Source: Owenia fusiformis | Taxonomy: Eukaryota > Annelida > Polychaeta > Sabellida > Oweniidae | Reading direction: 5' to 3' | Assembly (NCBI GenBank): GCA_903813345.2 | Contig: CAIIXF020000005.1 | Location: 2,356,001-2,420,000 of the forward strand | DNA: 64,000 nucleotides | In this document: in pieces, positions 53,301 through 56,300 of the stretch | Numbering within the stretch: position 1 is the first letter of the stretch | Layout of the letters: every line of letters starts with the position of its first letter | Notes under the pieces: generated by a model | Database searches by the model: none | What the model was told of the DNA's origin: nothing | The model's input: the letters and a program-made list of their open reading frames with translations, nothing else | Made by a program: the position numbers and the translations under genes

Positions 53301-56300
53301 AAGTGATCGCATATTTGATATCTGCATGCAAGATTACGTCTAGAAATGAAGTTTTAAAAGTTGTTTGTCAACTTTGAAATTTAGATTTTCTCTAAAGTGT
53401 GATTTCTACATGTAGGTCAAGTGGATTCCCCATAGAGCTTGTTAGAAATTGAAATATTTTCTTGAATTGAGCAGATAATCTCCTTTACTGAACATATTTG
53501 AAATAGCTCACCTCTGACTCAAATAGGCTGAATTTATTTATTGTTCAACTTTACCCTTAAATGGTTAAGCTATAGAGAATAACACTTATGGAAACGGACA
53601 ATCATGAGGGTGTATAAGGTATCATTGGAAAGGTTTTTCGATTCCCAGTATTTTGAGCTGACTTATAACTATATTGAGCCATTATTAATGAAGAAACTCA
53701 TATTCTAAGAACATAGAGGTTTTTGGTTTCAAAAATTAAGTAAAAAATTGTAAAATTGAAATTGAAATTCAAAAAAAGGTTTCACATATCACATTTTGAT
53801 AACATTGAGTAAGATTTCAATATAAGCCAAATTGGTTTAAACTTTATATGGGGCCTTTAAGAGGTAGGTATTAGCCACAAAACTGGACTAAAGACAGTGT
53901 TCAATAAATACTATTTACTTGGTTAGGAATTGTTCACTCTAATCTGTCACTCAATACAAATCTCTTACAAATATAAAACTAAAAATATAATCCCAAATGC
54001 GTATGCGAATTTAATATAGTTATATTGTGTGCTCTCTAGGCAAGTTGCTAACTGTCAGCAAAGATGGAAGTTTACAAGGAATTCTCTCCAGGACCGATCT
54101 CAAGAAAAACAAGAAGTTCACCTGGGCTTCGAAGGATGCTTTGTATGTCATAATCTCCCATATGTTTGGCAATTTAACCGGCCTTCACATTTGTTTCATT
54201 TTGTATACCCAAAGGTTGTCCTCACAGTATATTATACAATTACCTCCACTGTAAATAATGTTCATTCACAGGTTTCACTGTATATGTTGAATATCAGCTC
54301 CTCCCCTCCCAACATGGTCTAGTATTTAAATGTACCATATACAGCATACACTAGCCCTAGCAGCCATTGACCCGTCACTCCTCTACCTGATTGAATGTAA
54401 TTGTAATGAGATGTTGCAGTGCATGTTTGTATTAATGTCCCTGTTAATCTTGTAGGTAAACTCCCCATTGTTGATGGAGAAGGAAATCTGATTGCAGTAG
54501 TCTCACGGACTGATCTTAAGAAAAATAAGGAGTTTAAACTTGCATCAAAGGATGACAAGTATGCAGTTGAATAATGTGTTTCTCTTTGGTATATTACTTA
54601 TATTAGTGCATGTGTTTCAGTCAAGTGATCTCTCCAGCATTAAACAACTGGGTGTTGCACAAAGTTGGATATTGATTTGTACCAAGTTTAGAATTGGGAA
54701 AATTGACCTACTTGGACATCCCTTAGTCAGAATCATGTACCCAGTTGAGAAAGAATCCTGGAGAGAAAATATACACTATTTATTGCAAAGCACCAAATAT
54801 ACAAGACAATTGGAAGAAAACGGTGAAATTGTTTTTGTGTTGATATTTGGTGTTTTACAGTCTGTGTTGTTTAGAAAGTCTGTGTATAAACATGTAATGC
54901 ATCTTATTTTTCATTTCCTTTTCTTGCATCTCTTGATTCTTCTTTAAACAATTCCCCATAAGTACTGATTTCAATTTTTCAAGAATTATTCACTTTCACA
55001 GACATATTTTTGAGAAATTCATTAATGTAAGAGGATGATGTAATCTTTTCAGTTTTGTTTGTATTATTGCTATGGTTACATCCCTCCACATAGTCATAAT
55101 TGAAGTTTGTTATTCTCTGCTAATAGTGATAATTGTGCTAATTGTCCTGATATTATTTTCATAAACTCTTGTCTAATTGAATACGATAATGACATAACCA
55201 AAATGAAATCATATTTATTGACGTTTAAAACAGTTATTGAGTATCACATTAAGTTCCGAGCGCATCCCTTCACACATTTGTTTTCGCATATTTATTCCAA
55301 TTTAGTACTTGTACATTAAAAATGTACTACATGTATTTTATAACCTAACCACATGTAACTGTACTGCATGTGTATTGTATATGTAGACTTCTTTCTTATA
55401 AGTGTATAACATGTATTTTTTAAGTATACTACATGTATATTATTATAAATGCACTACATGAATATTGTATGTATACTACATCAGGCCCGTAGCTGGGAAG
55501 GGGACTCTAGGCGAATCCCCATAAATATATAATTTCAAAATTATTCACTTCAATTGTGACCCCCTGAAATTACTTGAAAATTTAGCCCCATCTTGGCAAT
55601 AACTGGCTACAGACCTGACATGTATATGATAAGTGCACTACATGTAATTTATAAGTATAAAACATGTATGTTATATGATAAGTGTAGTACACGATGTTGT
55701 TGCATGTGTGTTGTAGGAAAATTACCAATTGTCGGGCCACAAGATGAGCTTGTTGCTCTAATATCGCGTACTGATCTGAAAAAGAACAAAGACTATCCTA
55801 TGGCTTCTAAAGACACCAGGTGCACAGAAGTAGATACTCTAGAAGTTTTCCGATCAATTTATATCATTGATTGATTTCATCATCCTTATATTGTTAATGT
55901 TCTAATAATAGTGGTGTTTTGTGTATACTGTATATAAGTTACCATTTGTTAACTCAGTTGACCAATCATCTTCTTAAATTTTGAAATTTTAGGAGTTAAT
56001 AATAGCTTAAACATTAATTAAAATACAATTATAGCATTATTTGATAATTATACTGAAGAGTAATATGAGTATTGTAATTGTGAAGCATAAGCAGCTTAGT
56101 TGAAAATCTTCTTATGAATGTGTAATACAATGAATTGTTTAAATAAATCATTTCTTTTCTCACATTTAGGAAACAACTTTTGGTTGGTGCCGCAATATCA
56201 ACTCATGATGAGGACAAACGGCGCCTTGATCTCTTGGTGCAGGCTGGGATTGACGTAGTTGTGCTTGTGAGTCAGTTATGACGTTTATACAATTCTATTA

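Follow-up and report, generated by a model that had tools for sequence, protein, structure and literature searches.

Tandem clusters of mutually exclusive exons, such as those of Dscam and others, use one exon at a time and are known mostly from genes for receptors, channels and structural proteins. In PKM, the alternative exon encodes a regulatory and interface region. Here we compare with these systems a gene for IMP dehydrogenase (IMPDH) of the annelid Owenia fusiformis, called gene 1 below, which lies in a stretch of 64,000 nt (contig C5:2356001-2420000; hereafter the window). Gene 1 carries three copies of exon 7 (7A, 7B and 7C) and two of exon 9 (9D and 9E), and we consider it likely, judging from sequence, that they form two clusters of mutually exclusive exons whose isoforms tune feedback. 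As in tandem clusters generally, the exons of each array are homologous and share one length and phase. The closest known logic is that of PKM exons 9 and 10, exon 10 being 167 nt long and likewise not a multiple of 3 (excerpt of PMC3498831). PKM has one cluster of two exons, whereas gene 1 has two clusters, of three and two exons, and a paralogue that is fixed for one exon type. As in PKM, the swapped segment carries mapped allosteric residues, here contacts to guanine nucleotides, and by analogy an isoform-specific allosteric response might be expected.

IMPDH limits the rate of guanine-nucleotide synthesis; it is also a target of drugs, and its gene is linked to retinal disease. Its known regulation involves paralogues, splice variants, phosphorylation, nucleotide binding and filaments. 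Vertebrate retinal IMPDH1 forms add N- or C-terminal pieces. Chains titled IMPDH1 isoform 5 in the PDB range from 514 to 621 residues. In passages on splice variants, human IMPDH1 is described as having an exon confined to the retina (PMC6952364) and mouse Impdh1 as able to skip exon 2 (PMC13232022), and the IMPDH passage of PMC7917623 is a table entry; none of the three describes an exon array. Gene 1 differs from the vertebrate variants in that it would swap internal segments of the Bateman module and the barrel, leaving the length unchanged. Humans likewise have two genes, IMPDH1 and IMPDH2, with the same fold and numbering as gene 1 in this region. Over residues 207-241, however, the human paralogues differ at 4 of 35 positions, whereas exons 7A, 7B and 7C differ among themselves at 14-17 of 35. 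No earlier description of an exon array in IMPDH was found in the titles, abstract openings and excerpts covered from the IMPDH exon and splicing literature, with few subscription papers among them. Mutually exclusive exon clusters are known as such; the IMPDH instance appears to lack an earlier report, and the history of its paralogue seems unusual.

The exon arrays of gene 1

The spliced product of gene 1 is a full-length IMP dehydrogenase of 515 aa, and its internal exon junctions follow the GT-AG rule. Human IMPDH1 and IMPDH2 are its best PDB matches (E ~1e-270; one isoform queried). The alignment to both is full-length and gap-free through the exon-array region, so that human numbering is directly usable. 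In the three of six isoforms that were scanned (A/D, C/E and B/E), the Pfam IMPDH model scored 457-465 bits and the CBS model 44-53 bits. The hallmark residues C331, R322, G326 and T333 are present, together with the barrel and the CBS pair. Gene 1 is, on these grounds, an animal-type IMP dehydrogenase, for which enzymatic activity and GTP inhibition are predicted. The coordinates in the window are as follows.

44368..62802, + strand: coding region of IMPDH gene 1, canonical Met to stop; 15 coding positions, two with alternative copies
53167..53254, + strand: constitutive exon 6, upstream of cluster 1; start of CBS2, ending with KSKK and the first base of G207
54040..54142, + strand: exon 7A, residues 207-241; 103 nt, AG/GT, phase 1 to 2; same type as the exon of the paralogue, gene 2
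54456..54558, + strand: exon 7B, residues 207-241; 103 nt, AG/GT, phase 1 to 2
55717..55819, + strand: exon 7C, residues 207-241; 103 nt, AG/GT, phase 1 to 2; canonical type
56170..56266, + strand: constitutive exon 8, between the two clusters
56492..56582, + strand: exon 9D, residues 274-303; 91 nt, AG/GT; divergent copy of cluster 2
57012..57102, + strand: exon 9E, residues 274-303; 91 nt, AG/GT; canonical-like copy of cluster 2
58966..59061, + strand: constitutive exon 10, downstream of cluster 2

A sequence-only reading of the window had placed three tandem 103-nt exons at these positions. All three were found, each flanked by an AG acceptor and a GT donor of its own, entered in phase 1 and left in phase 2; their coding span corresponds to human residues 207-240 and a part of codon 241. 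The second duplicated pair, 9D and 9E (91 nt each), was absent from that reading. It had also proposed that the frame tolerates a single copy of exon 7, and the translations agree: one copy gives 515 aa, and two, three or none give an early stop. The five wrong combinations tried in cluster 1 (A+B, A+C, B+C, A+B+C and none) all stop at codons 236-251, both of those tried in cluster 2 (D+E and none) stop at codons 275-309, and each of the six regular combinations (3 x 2) is open over 515 aa. The arrays thus show what is expected of mutually exclusive clusters, namely adjacent homologous exons of equal length and phase, with a length that is not a multiple of 3.

Splice sites were scored with one left out at a time. 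Set against the remaining exons of the two genes (27 donors, 28 acceptors), all five alternative donors and all five alternative acceptors score within range. A possible in-frame cassette exon of 42 nt lies at 50960-51001, between exons 5 and 6; its splice sites (donor 4.3, acceptor 5.1, scored without leaving one out) are its sole support, and it may be due to chance.

Once known exons had been masked, the window and gene-2 sequence yielded no further copies of exons 7 or 9 at E up to 0.1; under the same conditions, the 32 exon peptides of both genes gave a single match, an N-terminal exon. Retrocopies, which would reveal the exon that is transcribed, were sought in the genome (498 Mb, 525 contigs) with a spliced query; of its 13 matches, gene 1 accounts for 8 and gene 2 for the other 5, with none elsewhere. 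The PF00478 profile also gave 13 genome matches, three of them on another contig, C3. A 110-residue piece spanning two of the three matches fits GMP reductase best (TIGR01305, 216 bits, a score under the full-length cut-off, as expected for a piece of this size).

Predicted consequences of exon choice for the protein

Guanine-nucleotide contacts have been mapped in Ashbya IMPDH (Buey et al. 2015, PMC4660370, in part). With Ashbya numbering taken as human +2, a mapping of our own through Arg226/Arg224 and Lys240/Lys238, nine of these contacts fall within exon 7, at human positions 207, 208, 222, 224, 225, 226, 227, 229 and 238. This bears out the earlier proposal that the exon contacts regulatory nucleotides. 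Eight of the nine (G207, K208, R224, T225, D226, L227, K229 and K238) are identical across A, B and C, and residue 222, which is L, V or I, is the sole pocket contact that varies. Retention of R224, D226 and K238 in every copy had been read from the sequence correctly. So had the presence of retinopathy positions in this segment, since the same paper, in the portion available, lists R224P, D226N, L227P, R231P and K238E/R; where the human protein has R231, all three copies have Lys.

Variation, placed at 210-222 and 232-235 in the sequence-only reading, was located at 210, 211, 213-217, 219-222 and 232-235, plus 240 and 241. At position 210, the Pro of the canonical CBS motif is Leu in A. Residues 232-235, which lead back to the barrel, read KFTW, EFKL or DYPM, and the stretch 213-222 varies too. 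Isoforms C/E and B/E pass the Pfam CBS model for CBS2, and A/D has no single passing stretch, its best being CBS1. Since the copies agree at eight of the nine contacts, exon choice would probably adjust scaffold and hinge without removing nucleotide sites.

In exon 9, D274, S276, Q277 and N303 are among the IMP-site residues (PMC9643795, in part). Both 9D and 9E retain D274, S275, S276, Q277 and N303, and variation is confined to 284-299.

GTP at site 3 stabilises the compressed state of the enzyme (Johnson and Kollman 2020, PMC7018514, in excerpt). We infer that the isoforms keep catalysis and the ligand sites and would differ in the ease with which the octamer is compressed. An effect of isoform choice on filament assembly had also been suggested. 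It finds no direct support, as the filament contacts named in the same excerpt, Y12 and R356, lie outside both clusters. Y12 and R356 are both present in gene 1. According to that source, as far as the excerpt goes, the filament residues are conserved among chordates and polymerization is reported in vertebrates only.

The neighbouring paralogue and the age of the copies

A second IMPDH gene lies on the same contig, tail to tail with gene 1 and about 6.3 kb from it.

C5:2425066-2433556, - strand, outside the window on its right side: IMPDH gene 2, complete; 616 residues in the model, including an N-terminal extension

Outside the two swapped segments, the two proteins are identical at 358 of 446 residues. 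Gene 2 carries a single exon 7 and a single exon 9, and no extra copy of either was found in its introns (E up to 0.1). Its exon 7 resembles A (29/35 residues) more than B (20/35) or C (19/35). Seven residues (210L, 211T, 220G, 222L, 232K, 234T and 235W) are common to A and gene 2 and occur in none of B, C and the human proteins, whereas none of the remaining five pairings among A, B, C and gene 2 has such an exclusive residue. In a maximum-likelihood tree (35 columns, six rows), A and the gene-2 exon are joined with support of 100/99. Of the three types, C is nearest to human IMPDH. Exon 9E matches gene-2 exon 9 at 26 of 31 residues; 9D forms a long branch whose placement is unsure. It appears from these comparisons that the A/C split is older than the gene duplication. 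The simplest history would have types A and C in place before the duplication, gene 2 keeping A alone and gene 1 keeping A, B and C. Gene 2 would then be, in effect, a fixed A form.

Other features of the two genes may be mentioned here. Gene 2 has Leu at human position 276 (DSLQGNS), one of the IMP-site residues listed in the excerpt of PMC9643795. Its counterpart of exons 10 and 11 is a single exon of 240 nt, with no intron between them. Candidate N-terminal extension exons of gene 1 lie at 38958-38978 and 39850-40133, joining at 44367, in frame with the canonical start. The extension reads MSQRQQN...ENLNKATANLGHESANSRAFREMYQRG...SMADYL, and its motif ENLNKAT-N-GHESAN-R-FREM is common to gene 2 (E = 5e-11). 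The window also holds two tRNA-Glu (TTC) genes, at 33224-33296 and 37596-37668.

The alternative to a working array that fares best is that normal mRNA takes a single copy from each cluster, probably 7C and 9E, and that the others are decaying relics or are spliced only by error. It is suggested by the canonical character of these two exons: 7C matches each human protein at 26 of 35 residues (7A at 17 and 19), and 9E has the likeness to gene 2 given above. The weak 7A donor (3.5) and the A/D isoform, poorest in CBS2 of the three scanned, point the same way. We nevertheless regard this as unlikely. The copies contain no stops, their splice sites score in the normal range, and replacement change is far below silent change in every pair. 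The proportions of replacement and silent differences (pN/pS) are 0.26/0.85 for A-B, 0.34/0.94 for A-C, 0.26/0.83 for B-C and 0.23/0.87 for D-E; silent sites are near saturation among the copies. Moreover, the A type has been kept at the background rate relative to gene 2: the pair of A and the gene-2 exon gives 0.12/0.89, with 29 of 35 residues shared, and the constitutive exons 3-6 of the two genes give 0.13/0.88. In a neutral simulation, the observed identity without a stop arose in 0 of 20,000 trials for every pair among A, B and C and for D-E; over nine pairs, the count was 0 of 20,000 in eight, and the rate was 1e-4 in the ninth, D against gene 2. In a protein search of the window together with the gene-2 sequence, exon C recovered B (E = 1e-11) and A (E = 2e-7), and exon E recovered D (E = 1.7e-11). 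Together with the simulation, these values exclude chance similarity of the copies. The exon copies look old and constrained.

A further possibility is a poison-exon role for the extra copies: mRNA with two copies or none would be non-productive and lower IMPDH output, the choice of peptide being incidental. All seven wrong combinations tested do stop early. However, such a role has no need of coding constraint, yet the copies keep their frame, their protein sequence and most ligand contacts; and double inclusion that breaks the frame is also expected of mutually exclusive exons of this length. We hold this to be quite improbable. Slightly less probable again is gene conversion, in either direction, between exon A and gene 2, which would make the array younger than it appears. 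The two genes are neighbours, and no pair is closer than A and the gene-2 exon. The silent divergence of this pair (0.89) equals that of exons 3-6 (0.88), which argues against recent conversion; an ancient one may have occurred. Finally, an assembly artefact of collapsed or misjoined copies, the possibility that the sequence-only reading had named as fatal to it, has nothing found in its favour and is very improbable, as the copies differ at 36-49% of bases (A-B 42/103, A-C 50/103, B-C 41/103 and D-E 33/91, with 61, 53, 62 and 58 bases identical, respectively) and all lie within one contig of 42 Mb.

Splicing control and the proposed switch

Several observations weigh against two clusters of mutually exclusive exons that tune feedback. 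The donors of 7A (3.5) and 7C (4.9) are in the weak part of the range of -1.4 to 11.0, and the acceptors of 7C (4.3) and 9E (4.1) score below most others. The introns between the copies, all GT-AG, measure 313 nt (7A-7B), 1158 nt (7B-7C) and 429 nt (9D-9E), more than simple steric exclusion would allow. One of nine intron pairs in a duplex test, 7A-7B with 7C-8, fell under all 20 shuffles (z -3.1; introns cut to 900 nt, or 600 nt for 9E-10, with folding within introns ignored and no correction for nine tests), so that docking and selector RNA structures are not demonstrated in gene 1, a difference from tandem clusters generally. A is the poorest CBS2 by the Pfam model among the three isoforms scanned. 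The near invariance of the GTP-contact residues speaks against a large change in nucleotide affinity, and the pairwise pN/pS values are compatible with a period of relaxation on one copy.

With a limit of E = 0.1, the introns between the copies did not match each other. All matches among introns were weak; they include inverted ones in AT-rich DNA that join introns 6-7A and 7C-8 (61% over 91 nt, E 0.01) and introns 7C-8 and 9E-10 (61% over 158 nt, E 0.005). TGCATG, which we take to be a Fox-type motif, occurs at 54420-54425, 30 nt before 7B, and at 55701-55706, 10 nt before 7C. Its total in the window is at the chance level (51 against 47.5 expected), and it is kept as a lead. A putative conserved intronic control element at 53281-53499, just downstream of exon 6 and 72% identical to the equivalent intron of gene 2, was rejected as a dispersed repeat of ~220 bp: among 602 genome candidates, 40 were scored and all 40 matched. 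Decay of the frame-shifted wrong products might itself serve as a filter that needs no extra element.

We propose the following scheme for gene 1. Each mRNA would take one of 7A, 7B and 7C and one of 9D and 9E, giving up to six enzymes. The choice of exon 7 would concern CBS2 with the hinge that returns to the barrel, and that of exon 9 the segment of the catalytic barrel between the active-site residues 274-277 and 303. Wrong combinations shift the frame and would be lost through early stops and nonsense-mediated decay. The exons would thereby swap scaffold and hinge residues and spare those that contact nucleotides or form the active site. Because the scaffold and hinge are swapped and the ligand sites kept, the isoforms likely differ in the balance between the active extended octamer and the compressed one inhibited by GTP. 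Feedback strength would thus vary across tissues or states. The A-type exon would predate the duplication, an alternative isoform having become the sole form of gene 2. In its full form, the proposal is a combinatorial 3 x 2 switch, one choice acting on the hinge and the other on the barrel, through which each cell type would set the point of GTP feedback on IMPDH, type A having later been locked into a separate gene. This form is tentative: we see it as a serious possibility that stops short of being probable.

The variants of CBS2 and hinge in gene 1 are natural and constrained, and offer a ready-made set with which to ask which residues outside the pocket set feedback. If the scheme is true, the genome of O. 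fusiformis would hold a splice-switched enzyme plus a constitutive version of one of its isoforms. Gene 2, fixed as it is for a single exon type, seems to be a case of traded roles between alternative splicing and gene duplication.
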